Of a stretch of DNA of 64,000 nt, positions 5,542 through 46,230 are shown piece after piece (position 1 is the first letter of the stretch; each line of letters opens with the position of its first letter). The notes under the pieces were generated by a model that searched no databases, was not told the DNA's origin, and saw nothing but the letters and a program-made list of their open reading frames with translations. The position numbers and the translations under genes were made by a program. This DNA comes from Eggerthellaceae bacterium (GTDB lineage: Bacteria; Actinomycetota; Coriobacteriia; Coriobacteriales; Eggerthellaceae). The stretch covers positions 186,001-250,000 of the forward strand of contig CAJTDS010000001.1 in assembly GCA_910575165.1 (NCBI GenBank), read 5' to 3'.

Positions 5542-5675
5542 TTTCAAAGTGGTTGAAAAATGCGGTTTTGCATAAAGGGAAGGTGCAAAACCGGAAAAAC
5601 CAGCCATTGGGCGATGCAAAGCCGTCGTTTTCAGCCATCGTCGATGTAAAAGCGGAATTATCAGCCAAAACGGGA
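5542..5675. repeat. Repeat family B (one inverted plus three tandem ~30-bp units)
   Basis: Direct units start with TGCAAAACCGG, TGCAAAGCCG and TGTAAAAGCGG at 5584, 5615 and 5645, each followed by an A/T-rich stretch and (C/T)CAGCCA. An inverted unit covers 5542-5572, giving a CGGTTTTGCA / TGCAAAACCG hairpin. The order (inverted first, then direct) is the same as in family A although the sequence differs. The rest of 5295-5790 shows nothing I can name. Confidence 0.65.
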
Positions 5676-5790
5676 TGATCTCGCAGACAGGGCTTCCGGA
5701 CGAGGTGCCGTGCCGGGCCGTACAGCGCCTGCGGGCCCCATCTCCCATGTTGTGCCCCGTCGGCATAAACAACCTATTGGCACGCAACGT

Positions 5791-7311
5791 CTAGTACACG
5801 TAGAAGCTGATTACTTCGGGATTGTCCGAGGTGCCCGTTACGCGCGCTTCAACGGTGCCATCCGCATTTGCCCCGTTACTACCCGTGACGGTGCAGGTCG
5901 CCTTTAGGAACCAGGTGCTCTCATCCTCGGGAGTTTCGGCGAGAAGGCCGAACGTGCTATGGACCTCGAAGCCGTAAGGGAACTCTTGCTCACCGTATCG
6001 CTGTACCGCCTCCCATGCGTCAAAGGGGTCAAGCTTATTCTCGAGCGCTTTTTGGGTTGCGGCTTTCTGTTCCTGCTCGTCGAGATAGTTCTGCGTAGTC
6101 ACTAGAAGCGTAACGGTTTTTTTATCGGTATCCAGTTTCTTGTAGCCTGTCACAATCCAGTTGAGAGCGTATTCCTGATCAGGGTTTTCGACGCTTGATG
6201 ACACATCGTAGGTGAAGTCGCCGCCAGTTGATGCGTGTTCGGATGCGACGGTGTAACCTTTGTCAAGAAGCGACGGCAAGATTTCTGTGGCGGGTGTGTT
6301 ATCGATGGCATTTAGCATTTCTTTGACGCCGTCTTCCTCGGGAGCTTTGGTTTCGTCTTGCTTCGGATCGGGTTCGCTCTTGGTTGTACTGGCGCTACTG
6401 CTAGAGGTCTTCGGCTTTGACGTAGCTGCGTTGATGGGCTCGTTAGGCTGCTCGTCTTCGAGGCGAACGTCTTCAGCCGCTATGCTACTTTCTCTGTTGT
6501 CGGCAGGCTGTTCACGAGAGCATTGCGAAAACAGAAGGCCGCCGAGTAGCAGAACGATAACCACGCCCGCAGCCGCTGCAACCATATTACGCTTAGTGCG
6601 CTTCTTCTTCAGCGCGTCGTATTCCTCTTTCTCCTGCGGCGATGCGGTGGCAACAAGGTCATCGAGTGTTTTCTGAACAGCGGCGGCCTTTTCTGTGCAT
6701 CGATCGATTTCCTGGGTGTCCGCCTGCCGTTCTTCAAGAAGCCGTCCGAGCTCGGCCGTTTCTCTTTCGACGGTTTCCCTGAGCGCGTCGGCGGAAGCGG
6801 CCGTCGAGCGGACCAAGGCAAGGAACTCAAAGGCACCCTTCTCTTCTTCGGGTCTGATCTCCGTGGAAAACGCGCCGTCGTCGCAGCTCACGCAGAAAAA
6901 GAGCTTTCGGTCGTCATGCACTTTGGAAGACACGGAGGTTTTGTCCTTCTTTCCAGCCACGACTGCGCCGATCGGTCCAGCGATGGCTCCTCCGATCAGG
7001 GCGCCGGTGACGCTAACTCCGGTAGAGTTTTTCGAGGAGACCGTCGTGTAGACCGACCCCGTCGAGTTGATCTCGGCTATTGTGCGCGAGGACAGGCTGT
7101 AGGTTTTTCCTTTGCAGGCGATAGTCGTAGCGGTGAGACGCACGTCGCGAAACGCGTCGACGCTGCGCGTGAGTTTCCTTTTGGTGGACGAGATGCTTTT
7201 CTCGATTTCCTTGATTTTGCCGTTTCGGTCTCGTTTTGCCGCTGCGAGATCTCGATTTGCACTGCGCACTTCTTCTTCGGCTGCGGTGACGCGTTCTAGA
7301 AAGCTAGACAC
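5791..7311 (-). CDS. Coiled-coil single-pass membrane protein of unknown function
   Basis: 506 residues from a GTG at 7311, which sits 5 bases after an AAGGGGGG ribosome site. Order of parts: a charged coiled coil (about 1-50), a beta-rich segment with a small Gly/Ala-rich stretch (GALIGGAIAGPIGAVVAG) that could touch a membrane, a second coiled coil (about 175-235), one membrane segment (VVIVLLLGGLLF, about 250), an acidic Ser/Thr-rich linker and a C-terminal domain of about 180 residues that would lie outside the cell. I do not recognise a family. Its predicted promoter at 7432-7459 has a C9 tract in the spacer, so its expression may switch on and off. Confidence 0.75.
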   Translation of the reverse strand: MSSFLERVTAAEEEVRSANRDLAAAKRDRNGKIKEIEKSISSTKRKLTRSVDAFRDVRLTATTIACKGKTYSLSSRTIAEINSTGSVYTTVSSKNSTGVSVTGALIGGAIAGPIGAVVAGKKDKTSVSSKVHDDRKLFFCVSCDDGAFSTEIRPEEEKGAFEFLALVRSTAASADALRETVERETAELGRLLEERQADTQEIDRCTEKAAAVQKTLDDLVATASPQEKEEYDALKKKRTKRNMVAAAAGVVIVLLLGGLLFSQCSREQPADNRESSIAAEDVRLEDEQPNEPINAATSKPKTSSSSASTTKSEPDPKQDETKAPEEDGVKEMLNAIDNTPATEILPSLLDKGYTVASEHASTGGDFTYDVSSSVENPDQEYALNWIVTGYKKLDTDKKTVTLLVTTQNYLDEQEQKAATQKALENKLDPFDAWEAVQRYGEQEFPYGFEVHSTFGLLAETPEDESTWFLKATCTVTGSNGANADGTVEARVTGTSDNPEVISFYVY

Positions 7312-7431
7312 TGGTTCCCCCCTTATGTTCGTGTGCGAAAGCGCTTAGCGATTGACGTCGCGAATGCACGGTGCTTCGCAGGCTTTTGTTGCGAGTGCGG
7401 CGGTTGCTCTCCGCAGGTTTTCGGCGGTAAA

Positions 7432-7459
7432 AGTGTAATGGGGGGGGGTATCTCGTCAA
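7432..7459 (-). promoter_or_regulatory. Predicted phase-variable promoter with a C9 spacer tract
   Basis: On the minus strand TTGACG (7459-7454) and TACACT (7437-7432) are separated by exactly 16 bases, 9 of which are an uninterrupted run of C (plus-strand G9 at 7440-7448). The start codon of the coiled-coil gene is about 115 bases further on. Gain of one base would give the ideal 17-base spacing. Confidence 0.65.
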
Positions 7460-8053
7460 TGAAAAATGGGAGTCAGATAGGGGTGTGCGGGCGAGCGGGG
7501 CATTGGTGGTTGCTTAATCTCGGGCAGAGTCCAAGAGCATAGCGTGGACGAGATTCTAGTTATTGCGATGGCCGATGCGTACGCTTTCGTTCTGCGCTGC
7601 CCTTTTCGTTGCCGCACTGTTCCAGCGAGCCGTTCTCCCTCTTTCATCCCTGCGTTGCCCGAAAACTAGCTAGTGCCCGAGAGGGCTCAGCTCTCACGCG
7701 CCCCAAACAGCGTCTGCTGTTCGCTACCGTTGATGGGCTATCTTCCGAAAGGCTTAAGGAATACCGAACGAAAGCGTAAGGTGGTGTAAGGCGAATCGAT
7801 GGATGGGTGCGGGCGGGTTCGGTAGGATGGGGTTGCTGGAAGGGCAAGGCGGCAACTCGGCGGTCGAACGTTCGTCTCTCCTGGTACGACTGCGGCGCAG
7901 ATCGCGTATCCCTCGCTTTGCCCGACCGGCGCTACTTCGCCCGAACGTCCGGACCGACCGGCGCCGCCGCGACCGCGTGATCGGTTGCGGCTGCGGCTGC
8001 CGGGACGGTTGGACAGCGGGTCTCTTAGGTAGGATCAGCCGGAAGGAGCCATC
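7460..8053. other. Intergenic stretch without recognised content
   Basis: About 590 bases between the divergent coiled-coil gene and the small gene at 8054. Open frames exist on both strands but lack ribosome sites and family resemblance. The promoter of the small gene should lie in the last 100 bases. Confidence 0.4.
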
Positions 8054-8248
8054 ATGAAATTCCCCGTACCCCTTGTTGCCGCTGCTGCCCTGATTGGAGC
8101 CGTCGTGTTCGTGGGCCGTCAGCTTCCGAAGGTTTCCTATGCGTCGAAGGTGCCTCAAGCCACGACAGGTCATCGCGGGCCGAAGGGGTCCTCGGCCCGA
8201 CAGGCTGCCGAGCAGGCCGCCCAGGCGCAGTCGCAGTCGCAGGCCTAA
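8054..8248 (+). CDS. Small membrane-anchored protein, 64 residues
   Basis: ATG 8054 follows GGAAGGAG at good spacing. The N-terminus is a short hydrophobic segment (PLVAAAALIGAVVFVG) that can act as a membrane anchor or uncleaved signal; the rest is polar and ends in an Ala/Gln/Ser-rich tail (QAAEQAAQAQSQSQA). No named family. The strong ribosome site and the codon pattern are the reasons for calling it real. Confidence 0.6.
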   Translation: MKFPVPLVAAAALIGAVVFVGRQLPKVSYASKVPQATTGHRGPKGSSARQAAEQAAQAQSQSQA

Positions 8249-8325
8249 TCGGCCGGCGAGCAACCGCGGCTGCAGGCACCGGCAGACTCGCGCAGCCGCG
8301 GTGGTCGCAGGCTTAACCGGCGGCT

Positions 8326-8334
8326 CCCCCCCCC
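8326..8334. repeat. C9 homopolymer tract
   Basis: A run of nine C lies 77 bases after the small gene and upstream of no obvious start codon. It belongs to the same class of long tracts as those at 7440, 16574 and 45436. No promoter elements flank it in a convincing way. Confidence 0.6.
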
Positions 8335-8361
8335 TTGCGCTCGGTTACCCCTTTGTCGGCT

Positions 8362-8560
8362 GCAGTTTTTGGCAGAGATTCGGGGTTTGGCAAATTCTCG
8401 ACTCGGACTTTCGAGCTTGCTCGCAAAGCAGTTCAGAATATAGCCTGATAGATTTTATTCCATTATGAGAATATATCCTGAGATGCCCAGATTGCCGCGC
8501 CCGCGCATTAGTTTCGGAGTGATGAAATTTGCCAAGCCCCGAGTCTCTGCCAGAAAACGC
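8362..8560. repeat. ~200-bp element with 36-bp imperfect inverted ends
   Basis: The left arm 8362-8397 contains GGCAGAGATTCGGGG then TTTGGCAAATT; the right arm 8525-8560 is its inverse with about five mismatches. The 127 bases between hold no gene. It lies downstream of the serine dehydratase. It could be a MITE-like remnant or a large transcription-end structure. Confidence 0.6.
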
Positions 8561-8624
8561 GAGAACCTGAGCGGCTGCACGCAGGTCGGGCGCCGATCGA
8601 ATGCGATCGCAAGCAGCGGGCTGC

Positions 8625-10412
8625 CTACTCTACTTCCTCGGGGATGTGCTCGATGGCCAGGGGGTTGCCGCTTCCGCCGCCACTGCCCTCGTCGCGAGTG
8701 CCCTCATCGCGAGCATCCGCATCGCCGCCGCCCGCGATGAAGCCGCCCACGCCGCAGCCGCCGCACAGGGCGCAGCCGGTGGGCGTGGCCGCCAAGCCGC
8801 CCAGGGCGCTTTCGCGCAGCTCGAAGGGGAGGGCGCGGCCCACGGCGTACAGGGCGTCAACAGTCTCGTCGAACCCGACCGCGCTTCCGGTGCCGGCCAA
8901 AGCTAGCTGGGCCGCGGTGAGCGCATTGGCCGCCCCGGTGGCGTTGCGCTTCTGGCAAGGGGCTTCCACCAGGCCGCCGATCGGGTCGCACACTAGGCCC
9001 AACAGCCCGGCGATGGCGATGGCCGCCGCGTCCAGGCACTGCTGCGGCGTGCCGCCCATGAGCTCCACAGCCGCGCTGGCCGCCATGGCCGAGGCCGCGC
9101 CCACTTCCGCTTGGCATCCACCTTCGGCACCGGCAACCGTTGCGTTGCGCATAACCAGCATGCCGATGGCCCCGGCGTTGGCAAGCCCGCGGGTCAGACG
9201 CTCGTCGGACAGCCCGAACACGTCCTGCAGAGCCATGAGCACGGCCGGCACCACCCCCGCCGACCCGGCTGTCGGGGCCGCCACGATGCGCCCCATGGAG
9301 GCGTTGGTCTCAAGCACTGCCTGGGAGTAAACGATTGCCCTGGTGAGCAGCCCGTCTCCCAGCGCCTTCTTCGACTCCACCGCATCCCACAGCTTCGCCG
9401 CCTCGCCGCCGATGAGTCCGCCCATGGACCTCACCGGGTGCGCAAGCGGCTCGGTTGCCGAGGCCTTCATCACCTGCAGCGCCTCGTTCAGGTAGCGGCG
9501 CGTGTCGTCCACGGCGATGTCCTGCGAGGCCAGCATCGCCCGCTCGCGGCGGCAGATGGCGTCCGACAGCGGGATGTCCTCTTGTTGGGCGTAGGCCAGA
9601 AGCTGGGCGCCCGTGGCGAAGTCCATGGTTTCGAACAGACTGGCGGCTTCCTCGGCGGAAAGCTCCGAGCCGAACCCTGTGGGCGTAAGGCCTTCTTCGC
9701 GCGCCTCCTCGTCGGTCATGGGCACGGACGTGGCGCCGAAGCGGTTGCTGGGTACGATGCGCACGCTGAGGATCTTGGGGTTTGCGGACAGCATCTGCTC
9801 GATGGCCGGCGGGATGGGGTCGTCAGTTTCCATGACGGTGTAGGCCACGTCGCCCTTCCGCTCGCGGAACAGCTTGGTGGTGGCAATGTTCACGTCCATC
9901 TCGGCCACGCACCGCGCGATGAAGGCCAGCACGCCGCGCACGTCGCGCTGCTTCACCACCAGCGAGTGGTATTCGCCCGTGAGCAGCACTTCCACGCCGT
10001 TGATCGACCGGATTTGGGCCGCCCCGCCGCCGATGGACTCGCCGCGCACCTGGGTGACGGCTCCGCTGGCATCGCGCACTGCTATGTCGACGGTGTTGGG
10101 ATGGTCGGTGTGAGCGGCGCTGTCGGGCACGAACGAGAAGCCAAGCCCGGCCGCCTCCGCTAGGGCGAAGGAGTCGCGGATGCGCAGGTCGTCGGTGGCA
10201 AGGCCCAGCATGCCGGCAACCAGGGCGCGGTCGGTGCCGTGGCCGCGGTAGGTTTGGGCGAAGCTGCCGTACAGCGTGAACGTCGCCTCCACCGGCTCGG
10301 CCGCAAGCAGCCGCCGCGCCATGAGGGCGATGCGCAGCGCTCCGGCCGTATGGGAGCTGGAGGGCCCCACCATGATGGGGCCGATCACATCACGAAGTCC
10401 GAAACTGCGCAT
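8625..10412 (-). CDS. sdaA: L-serine ammonia-lyase, single-chain iron-sulfur type
   Basis: 595 residues from ATG 10412, which follows GAAAGGACG. It deaminates L-serine to pyruvate and ammonia in the cytoplasm. The N-terminal (beta) domain starts SFGLRDVIGPIMVGPSSSHTAGA, the substrate-binding signature. An ACT-like region (YHSLVVKQRDVRGVLAFIA) follows. The alpha domain has QEDIPLSDAICRRE, VAAPTAGSAGVVPA and CDPIGGLVEAPCQKRNA; these Cys and the C-terminal CALCGGCGVGG fit the 4Fe-4S site of the oxygen-sensitive enzymes. In several bacteria alpha and beta are separate genes; here they are fused, as in SdaA/SdaB of Escherichia coli. A short acidic/Gly-rich tail follows the core. Confidence 0.93.
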   Translation of the reverse strand: MRSFGLRDVIGPIMVGPSSSHTAGALRIALMARRLLAAEPVEATFTLYGSFAQTYRGHGTDRALVAGMLGLATDDLRIRDSFALAEAAGLGFSFVPDSAAHTDHPNTVDIAVRDASGAVTQVRGESIGGGAAQIRSINGVEVLLTGEYHSLVVKQRDVRGVLAFIARCVAEMDVNIATTKLFRERKGDVAYTVMETDDPIPPAIEQMLSANPKILSVRIVPSNRFGATSVPMTDEEAREEGLTPTGFGSELSAEEAASLFETMDFATGAQLLAYAQQEDIPLSDAICRRERAMLASQDIAVDDTRRYLNEALQVMKASATEPLAHPVRSMGGLIGGEAAKLWDAVESKKALGDGLLTRAIVYSQAVLETNASMGRIVAAPTAGSAGVVPAVLMALQDVFGLSDERLTRGLANAGAIGMLVMRNATVAGAEGGCQAEVGAASAMAASAAVELMGGTPQQCLDAAAIAIAGLLGLVCDPIGGLVEAPCQKRNATGAANALTAAQLALAGTGSAVGFDETVDALYAVGRALPFELRESALGGLAATPTGCALCGGCGVGGFIAGGGDADARDEGTRDEGSGGGSGNPLAIEHIPEEVE

Positions 10413-16454: not shown

Positions 16455-19400
16455 ATGAGGAAGTCTACTGCTCGTATTAAGGTAGTGAACAGCCTGCTGG
16501 CGTGCACGCTGGTACTGGGGCTGATGCCGTCGCTGGGATCGGTTGCCTACGGCGATCCAGCTGAAAATCTCATGGGGGGGGGGTCGCCTGAAAGCGGTTT
16601 GCTAGGGGCGGTTTCTGACCTCATGATACCCGAAGCGCAGGATGAGCCCGTCGGCGACCCTGCGTCGGAGGATGACGCTGCCCCCGATAACGCCGGCAAC
16701 CCCGAAGGCTCCGTTTCGGCCGCCGACCCCAACTCCGAAGGCGCCGAAGCGAACGCTCCCACCCCTGTTTCCGAAGGTGACGATTCCCCCGACGCCGCCT
16801 CCGACCCCAACGCTGACGACGCCGACGACTCGGCGATCGAGCTCAAATCCTTGGCCACCTTCGACGCTGGCGACGGCTTCACCGACTGCGGCGGCCTGTC
16901 CATCAAGAGCGCCGACGGCTCCACGGACGGCTTCGGCTACGAAGAGGTCACTTGGACGCGCATCGGCCGCGGCTACACCGAGAACGGGTATAGCAGCAGC
17001 GGCCGCAATCCCGAAATCCCCCGTACCACTCCGGTTACCGCTACCCTCAACATGCTGGTTATCAAGAAGAGCGGCACGTACACCATCAAGAACACCGCGG
17101 ACGCGGCCACGGGCACCGGCATCCGCGTCATGCCCGGCTTGAACGTGAACCTGGTGTTCGCCGGCGTAAACATCAACGGCGGCTACCCCATGGAAATCGT
17201 CACCAACAGCCACGTGTCCTCTACCTACGACTTCCTGACCGAAGAGATGGAGGGCTCCGACGTGGCGAATCCCACGCGCGTGCACATCACCCTGGCCGAC
17301 GGTACCACGAACAACCTGACCTCGCTCTACAACAGCATCGCTCACAGCTCGGGCAGCAACCAGAACTACAACGAGTACCAGTTCCCCGGCCTGCGCTGCG
17401 GCGAGGGGTCGTACCTGACCATCGACGACGCGGTGCTCAACGTGGACACGGCGGGCAACCACATCACGCCCGTTGACGGCGCCATCCCCGACGGCACCAC
17501 CTACGTGGACCGCACCGGCACCGTGCGCACCGCCGACTCCACCAAGAAGAAGGAAAGCGAGCGCTTCAACAGCCTGTCGAACCTGGAGTCCTCGAACCCC
17601 GGCGTGCTGAACGTGTACGGCGGCGTGCGCTCGGCTGCCATCGGCGGCGGTCCGCTGGAGAATTCCGGCGTCATGACCTTCGACGGCGGCACCATCAACA
17701 CCTATGCCGCGGCCTTCAACGGTAACGGCGCCGGCTGCGGCATCGGCGGCGGCCATGCGGGCGGCAGCACCCAGACCACCATCAACGGCGGCGTCATCTA
17801 CGCACGGTCGTCCTTCCACGGCGCGGCTATCGGCGGCGGATGCACCTACGTCGGCGGCATGTCGTCCTACCTCACCTTCCCCCTGGCCGACGCGCTGCTC
17901 TCCCGCAACGCCAACTCCACCATCGCCGGCGACATCACCATCAACGGCGGCTTCACCACGGCCCAGGGCGACGAGCACTCCAATGCCTTCGGTCAGGGTT
18001 GCGGTGGCTCCAATACCGGCAAGACCATCCTCATCACCGGCGGCACCCTGTATCCTCTTTGGGGTGGTGGCGGCGGCTTTCTGGAAATCGGTGGCGATGG
18101 CGGCAAGGTCATCATCACCGGCGGCTCCATCAACTGCACGCGCTTCCAGGGCAACGACAACGACGGCAAGGCCTACGGCGGCAAGACCGATGAGAACGGC
18201 AACTACCTGTTCGACAGCACCAACAAGGTGGCCATGATCAACGTGAAGGTGGGCCCGAAGATTGAGTCCATGGTCAAGCAGCTCATGCGCGACAAGCTGG
18301 GCGACGCCTACGACGAGAGCACCATTGCCTCCAATCCGGAGTACCAGAAGCTGCTGGCCGAGGGCATGAACGCCAAGATTGAGTCTTGGGAGTTCAAGAT
18401 TAACGACATGCCCATGGAGCCCTACTACGGCGCGCCGGCCCGTCTGCAGAACGGCATTCTGTACCTGTGGCTGCCCGAGGGCACCTACGGCCGCGACAAG
18501 GTGGACGCGAACTTCAGCTACTACGTGGGCGACCAGCTGCTCACCTCTTACACCAACGTGCCGGCGAACCCCGACTCCGCCGACGGTACCATCAAGGAAT
18601 GGGAGGTCTTCGAGCTGGACGAGGCCTTCATCGAGGCCAACTGGTCCAAGTACTACGATGGCGTCTCCCTTGACTCCGCGGGTATCTTAGGCTCGGGCGG
18701 TATCTCGGTGAACAACCCTCCCAGTGGCAAGCTGACCGATGCGAACAAGCTGACCTTCGGCGCCCAGAAAATGGACGAGCTGGGCAACGGCACGGCGGCT
18801 TCCACCAGCTCTTCGAAGATGCCGGCCGATTCGGGCATGTACAACGTAGAGGTCATGTCCTCTCAGTACGCCTCCGATACCAACTTCGCCGTGACCTACT
18901 GGGGGCACCGCGCCTACGGCACCGCCACGGTGTCTCCCATCTCGTCGCGCTCCGTAACCGAGGTTCCCGAAGAGCTGGGTCGCGTGGTGGGCGACGATAC
19001 CTACACCAGCCCCGTGTGGCTGCAGGACGAGGCTCCCGAAGGGACCGACTTCAACACGGCGCTGCAGAACCACATGTTCGTTCCCGTGGACGTGACCAGC
19101 TACAAGGTGCCCTTCGGAGACACCTACAAGGACGGCACCGACACGGCGAAGGCCTCGTGCGTGGTTCCCCAAGGCCGCATCACGCTGTACCTGGACGGCG
19201 TGCAGATTCCCGCGCGCCTGGGCGGCGTGATTGACTATCGCCTGAGCTATGATGACACCGGCAAGCCGGTTATGGGCGATAACGGTTCGCAAGCTACTAC
19301 CAACAGCGACGTGGTCACCTATGTCGACGACGACGGTCGCATGCACGCGGTGGCCTACTTCGACCTGAACGAGAAGAAGATCAACGAGCTGTTCCGCTCG

Positions 19401-45031: not shown

Positions 45032-46230
45032 GGTACATAAGCCTGTTCAGCGGCGTAGAGGCCGCGTCGGTGGCGTGGGAGCCGCTCGGCTGGGAGCCGG
45101 TGGCGTTCGCCGAGGTCGAGCCGTTCCCCTGCGCCGTTCTGGAAGAGAGGTTCCCCGGGGTGCCGAACCTCGGGGACGTGACGAAGGTCGATTGGAGGGA
45201 GTGGCGTGGAAAAGCCGATCTCGTCGTCGGAGGAAGCCCGTGCCAGGCGTTCAGCGTCGCTGGACTACGCAAGGGGCTTGCTGACCCTCGGGGAAACCTC
45301 ATGCTCGAATACCTGCGAGCTTGCTACGAGATTGGACCCGAGTGGATCGTCTGGGAGAACGTCCCGGGAGTTCTATCCGCTGACGGAAGGCGGGCTTTCC
45401 AGGCCTTCCTCGAAGCGGTGGTTGAACTGTGGCCTGGGGGGGGGTTCTGCTGGAGGGTGCTGGACGCTCAGTTCTTCGGAGTGGCCCAGCGACGCCGCCG
45501 TGTGTTCGTTGTCGTCAATACTAGAGACTGGCGACGGGCCGCTGCGGTACTGCTTGAGCGCGACTGCCTGCGCGGGGATTCTCCGTCGAGCCGCGACAAG
45601 AGGAAAGCCCTTGCCGGGCTTCCTGGAGGCGGCGCTGTGGAGCGTCGTGCTCAAGCACCTGGGGAAGCGCATGTGCGAGCTGGTGGATGCGGACCTGGAC
45701 CAGTTCGAGGCGAAGGGGCAGCGCCTGGCGCTGCCTACGCTCTGCAGGTACGTTGCGGATGCGAGGGAGGCGGAAAGGGCGCTTTGCTACAGGAGGACGT
45801 GAGCGCGACGCTCGCAACGTCCAACACGCAGACGCTCTTCCAGCCCACGGCGTGCTACTCGATCGCCGGCGACATCGCGAGGGGAGCCCATATGCGGCAG
45901 AACGGGAAGGGGTGGTCTGACGACGGTGCGTCCCCCACGGTCACGACGCTCGACGTGCCTGCCGTGGCTTTCACGCAGAACCAGCGCGACGAGGTGCGTC
46001 TGGAAGGATGCGACGGGCAGGTTGTCGGAGCAATCGCCGCGAGTCCGGGCTCCAAGAACCAGCATTACGTGTGCATGGCCGATGACGCCGCGAAGTCGGC
46101 GGTTGACTGCGACATGTGCGGCACGCTCAAGCGCGGGGGACTTCCCTTCGTAGCCTACCGAGCAGCGGAGAGGACTACATCGGGACCCTGTGCGCCAGGG
46201 ACTACAAGGGGCCGGGTAACCAGGACATAG
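45028..46230 (+). CDS. C5-cytosine DNA methyltransferase, main part, with G9 tract and a broken C-terminal frame
   Basis: 400 residues. Motif I YISLFSGVEAASVAW, motif IV GGSPCQAFS near 69, motif VI WENVPG near 112, motif VIII QRRRRVFVV near 153. A G9 run (45436-45444) encodes three Gly at about 137-139. A long variable region (GGCEGGGKGALL... type) follows. Near 46160 the expected frame (SSGEDYIGTLCARDYKG, next frame) is left and the ORF ends in an unrelated tail. Motifs IX and X lie in the separate ORF at 46253. Either two frameshifts have killed the gene or it works as a split enzyme. It could protect phage DNA from host restriction. Confidence 0.85.
   Translation: MRYISLFSGVEAASVAWEPLGWEPVAFAEVEPFPCAVLEERFPGVPNLGDVTKVDWREWRGKADLVVGGSPCQAFSVAGLRKGLADPRGNLMLEYLRACYEIGPEWIVWENVPGVLSADGRRAFQAFLEAVVELWPGGGFCWRVLDAQFFGVAQRRRRVFVVVNTRDWRRAAAVLLERDCLRGDSPSSRDKRKALAGLPGGGAVERRAQAPGEAHVRAGGCGPGPVRGEGAAPGAAYALQVRCGCEGGGKGALLQEDVSATLATSNTQTLFQPTACYSIAGDIARGAHMRQNGKGWSDDGASPTVTTLDVPAVAFTQNQRDEVRLEGCDGQVVGAIAASPGSKNQHYVCMADDAAKSAVDCDMCGTLKRGGLPFVAYRAAERTTSGPCAPGTTRGRVTRT
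45436..45444 (+). repeat. G9 homopolymer inside the methyltransferase reading frame
   Basis: Nine G between motifs VI and VIII of the methyltransferase. The present length keeps the frame open through motif VIII. Confidence 0.85.

Follow-up and report, generated by a model that had tools for sequence, protein, structure and literature searches.

Homopolymer tracts in bacterial promoters

The promoters of Bordetella fim, which control surface appendages, have a poly-C tract in the promoter region and depend on the activator BvgA bound upstream. In the porA promoter of Neisseria meningitidis the tract sits in the spacer; the poly-C of opc covers the -35 element (PMC7864442). For Treponema pallidum tp0126, transcription is best at a spacing of 17 nt, and its dependence on tract length has been measured (PMC7864442). 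Strains of Cutibacterium (Propionibacterium) acnes differ in tract length and in expression at HPT_37 (PMC4746626). The phase variation published for Eggerthella lenta consists of large inversions of capsule loci (PMC13174815), and no description of promoter switching by slipped tracts in the lineage considered here was found in the open-access literature.

A C9 run between promoter elements

The window, the whole stretch of 64,000 nucleotides of Eggerthellaceae DNA that was analysed, reads TTGACG-AGATA-C9-AT-TACACT on the minus strand from 7459 to 7432, with a spacer of 16 nt (on the plus strand, 7433-7459 is gtgtaat ggggggggg tatctcgtcaa). This bears out a sequence-only reading, which had described TTGACG and TACACT separated by 16 bases with nine C. 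That reading was also right to place the site upstream of a coiled-coil membrane protein, as 120 nt separate the promoter from the GTG of a gene whose 506-aa product has one TM-like segment. The features of the locus are as follows.

7454..7459, minus strand: -35 element TTGACG, 5/6 consensus
7440..7448, minus strand: C9 homopolymer within the 16-nt spacer
7432..7437, minus strand: -10 element TACACT, 4/6 consensus
7422..7427, minus strand: probable transcription start zone, 5-10 nt past the -10, from promoter geometry
7317..7323, minus strand: Shine-Dalgarno-like AGGGGGG, 5 nt ahead of the GTG, read from the sequence
5791..7311, minus strand: gene for the 506-aa protein, GTG start, with two coiled coils, one TM-like segment and a YPYG domain

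Promoters of the porA type have a homopolymer of at least about 8 wholly between the -35 and -10 elements, and here C9 lies within a spacer of 16 nt. This spacing is in the range where a single base alters promoter strength. A consensus scan of 5600-8700 found two promoter-like sites, compared to 1.0 expected in shuffles, and the C9 promoter was the only sigma-70-like site upstream of the 506-aa gene. About 740 bp of DNA that looks intergenic separates this gene from the next one, a likely small gene at 8054. The RNA fold of the 5' leader is not unusual (z 0.99) and gives no hint of a leader RNA element. We think it rather likely that the 506-aa gene has in the C9 site a real promoter of the sigma-70 type, and that the spacer of this promoter acts as a stochastic regulator of its strength.

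The 506-aa protein

The protein begins with a coiled coil, followed by a second coiled coil, a TM-like segment at about 243-261 and a C-terminal region with the YPYG domain at 431-506 (NF052676, E 4.8e-24); no Pfam family reached its cut-off. Surface exposure is possible: one TM segment is predicted, with the C-terminal region following it. A single-sequence AlphaFold model had low confidence (pLDDT 47.8). The gene is accessory. Its product was matched at all in 7 of 138 family genomes, its own included, and in the other genomes of the genus there was no match to the protein and the locus was absent. The protein is mosaic-like and its two parts match different proteins from other genera, the N-terminal half a protein of genome G118 and the C-terminal YPYG part proteins of G014 and G135. 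None of these distant homologues has an upstream C/G tract, and no orthologue carrying the same promoter was found. Searches of wider genome contigs and viral contigs gave no match to the gene, and those of viral contigs none to its promoter DNA; a plasmid search with the protein gave one weak Bifidobacterium match, to the YPYG domain.

C/G runs in the genome and its relatives

Taken alone, a C9 run is unremarkable in this genome. The window holds 9 C8 words, compared to 5.0 in shuffles, and 14 of 100 shuffles reach 9. The 2.72-Mb genome has 43 C/G runs of at least 9 (29 of length 9, 10 of length 10, three of length 11 and one of length 12) and 12 of exactly 8, a figure derived by counting C8 and C9 words. 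In family DNA totalling 464 kb, window included, the runs of lengths 3 to 10 number 10425, 2502, 609, 48, 4, 0, 4 and 2. Runs of 7-8 are almost lacking and those of 9-10 are in excess, which means that the long runs form a population of their own instead of tailing off from the short ones. Further C/G runs stand in the window at 8326-8334, 16574-16583 and 45436-45444, and the excess at 9-10 in the genome and the sampled relatives is mostly between genes. A rough gene prediction places 32 of the genome's 43 long runs in intergenic DNA, which makes up 14% of the sequence; about 10 of the 43 have only 3' ends nearby. At two predicted gene ends (L064 and L088) a C9 run directly follows the apparent stop codon (tag-C9), a possible tie to 3' ends or termination.

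What is unusual in this genome is the combination of a C9 run with a promoter spacer. Only one of the 43 runs lies in a canonical spacer, and the expected number of such sites for the genome is about 0.01, or up to 0.06 allowing for the intergenic enrichment of tracts.

Spacer tracts across the family

A search of 137 family genomes, one per species, used the pattern TTGAC, a C or G tract, and TANNNT, in which spacings of 8-22 were allowed and a tract of at least 7 sufficed. The pattern was designed after the window's own site was known, and that site is one of the 15 long-tract matches counted below. The C-tract form gave 8 matches compared to 2 for a reversed control, and the G-tract form likewise gave 8 compared to 2. 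Of the permitted 8-22, only spacings of 15-18 occur among the 16 matches, and 15 of them have a tract of at least 9; under chance placement, the probability that 15 such runs fall at this spacing is about 1e-6.

As an upstream control, tracts 0-13 nt ahead of the -35 of the same promoter type were collected, a zone with 56 placements compared to 31 for the spacer. It held 9 distinct runs, of which seven were only 7-8 long and two were of length at least 9. The ratio of spacer to upstream is thus 15:2 for runs of at least 9 and 1:7 for runs of 7-8 (Fisher p 5e-4). Given the placements, 15 of 17 long runs in spacers has a p of about 1e-5, which becomes 3e-5 when the G097/G098 pair is taken as one. 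Runs of 7-8 show no bias toward spacers across the family; they favour the upstream zone, and therefore the base composition of spacers is not the explanation. Once the intergenic enrichment of tracts is allowed for, about 6 spacer cases would be expected where 14 independent ones are observed (p 0.004); for the upstream zone about 11 would be expected where 2 are observed. These expectations are rough and come from small samples. In a worldwide scan for C9 spacers, the matches listed came from diffuse taxa with a wide distribution of spacings.

Genes behind the spacer tracts

Where readable, the genes downstream of the spacer tracts mostly encode secreted or membrane proteins, a descriptive count made without a matched background of gene types.

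L072: sortase-anchored-like protein, below the NCBIfam cut-off
L079: choline-binding repeats
L081, L084: two large secreted proteins, 5 kb apart, in genome G111
L082: secreted protein
L070: SdpI-like
L073, L074: one-TM proteins
L083, L085 and, less surely, L071: small TM proteins
L080: Tat-signal flavoprotein
L078: RpoN, a non-envelope exception
L075: HNH protein, a non-envelope exception

The promoters of L081 (G111:C1:2550090-2550116) and L084 (2555198-2555224) are similar G9 promoters with 15-nt spacing, each preceding its large secreted protein. L078 (G041:C8:14896-14923) is a G10 spacer promoter upstream of the RpoN (sigma-54) gene, and a slippery promoter on this sigma factor would touch many genes.

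Promoters could be read for 11 close orthologues of the gene behind L073 and L074 (L243-L253), and they form a natural series for how spacer tracts arise. They keep the -35, the -10 and a spacing within 17-19; the spacers are C-rich in most, and a pure C10 is present in only 2 of the 11 species (G097 and G098). Comparison of these sequences indicates constraint on the spacing and not on the purity of the tract, a pure tract having apparently been either gained or lost more than once.

Mismatch repair and the proposed mechanism

MutS1 was found in none of 20 genomes (the host's own and 19 relatives) in which the controls were positive, and NucS was above its cut-off in none of them, with partial matches below the cut-off only. 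All Coriobacteriia analysed earlier were without both MutS and NucS (PMC5290159), and gene content points to this genome being coriobacterial, probably of the Eggerthellaceae. With MutS absent and NucS not above its cut-off, slippage at C9 is probably left unrepaired.

In the mechanism proposed here, slipped-strand mispairing would add or remove C residues in the C9 spacer and shift the spacing of the -35 and -10 elements by a base or two, and promoter strength would thus differ among cells. C9 gives a spacing of 16, slightly under the optimum, and C10 would give 17; from the usual 17-nt optimum, it is sound to expect that one added C would raise expression. The slippage rate, the effect on transcription and the benefit of varying a surface protein are what we infer. 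A functional, slippery spacer is supported by the family-wide statistics together with the missing mismatch repair, and a spacing switch or rheostat like that of porA and Tp0126 is the most likely mechanism, one toward which we lean. The genes behind spacer tracts probably vary their output at random by run slippage. A wider and more tentative proposal, possible and on balance doubtful, is that this gut-type actinobacterial family without MutS and NucS has evolved poly-C/G spacers again and again as a general switch of envelope genes; once mismatch repair is lost, any C-rich spacer would be a contingency locus from the start.

If tract length varies, cells of one commensal clone would differ randomly in their surface make-up, which would affect phage sensitivity and host contact, and the variation would be readable from existing deep sequence data.

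Alternative explanations

The main rival to the porA-like spacer-tract reading accepts the promoter as real and takes the pure run as a by-product. A C-rich spacer would have turned into a pure run by mutation without mismatch repair, leaving a slippery site whose strain-level expression drifts slowly, with no selected switching. The wealth of long tracts in the genome and their intergenic excess, convergent 3' regions included, are in keeping with this, and the tracts that lie only near 3' ends point to a mutational origin for many. The variable G/C tracts of P. acnes track clades, suggesting slow accumulation (PMC4746626). The orthologues of L073 and L074, which keep the spacing and not the pure tract, fit the by-product as well as the switch. 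Other points against the switch are the single canonical-spacer case among the 43 runs, the non-envelope genes behind some spacer tracts and the distant homologues of the 506-aa protein, whose genes have no tract upstream. However, intergenic enrichment accounts for no more than about 6 spacer cases in the family and would give about 11 upstream ones, where 14 and 2 are observed, and the shorter runs of 7-8 lack the spacer enrichment. We consider the by-product explanation unlikely overall.

It is also conceivable that the two hexamers meet by chance, form no working promoter, and that the 506-aa gene is transcribed from elsewhere. TTGAC/TANNNT pairs in the sampled family DNA have no clear peak at 16-18 nt, which means that most such pairs are chance, and a start at this site implies a 5' leader of about 115 nt. 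However, the small number of sites expected in the genome, the lack of any other promoter-like site upstream of the gene and the clustering of the family matches at functional spacing make this a slim prospect. Slimmer still is the prospect that the tract acts by the shape it gives the DNA or by binding a protein. Such effects are discussed for tprL (PMC7864442), C and G versions are both found, and the position of the tract within the spacer varies; the spacing nevertheless stays at 15-18 regardless of tract position, which points to the spacing requirement of RNA polymerase.

Comparison with known systems

Bordetella fim shares with the C9 site a poly-C tract in its promoter region; the -35 of the C9 site is near consensus, which an activator-dependent promoter of the fim type would not need. 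The sequence-only reading had likened the site to poly-G/C promoters, and the porA part of that likeness holds, with the tract in the spacer, while the opc part is loose given its covered -35 (PMC7864442). Both porA and the C9 site have a homopolymer in the spacer and a spacing near 17 nt, and the surface-associated product of porA may have a counterpart in the 506-aa protein (PMC2791445, PMC7864442). The porA tract differs in being poly-G and in serving a Gram-negative outer membrane protein, and its length variation and effect on expression have been demonstrated, whereas those of the C9 site are predicted (PMC2791445, PMC7864442). In Treponema pallidum, tp0126 likewise has its tract, a poly-G, between -35 and -10, in another phylum than that of the C9-site host. 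The HPT_37 tract of Cutibacterium acnes, upstream of PPA1943, is a C-tract in another actinobacterium, with an inferred place between -10 and -35; it differs in having 5 or 7 C, in preceding a quinone-biosynthesis gene and in varying at the level of clades, not fast (PMC4746626). Spacer tracts were thus already known in Neisseria, Treponema and P. acnes, and what is new is their recurrence across a family without mismatch repair.
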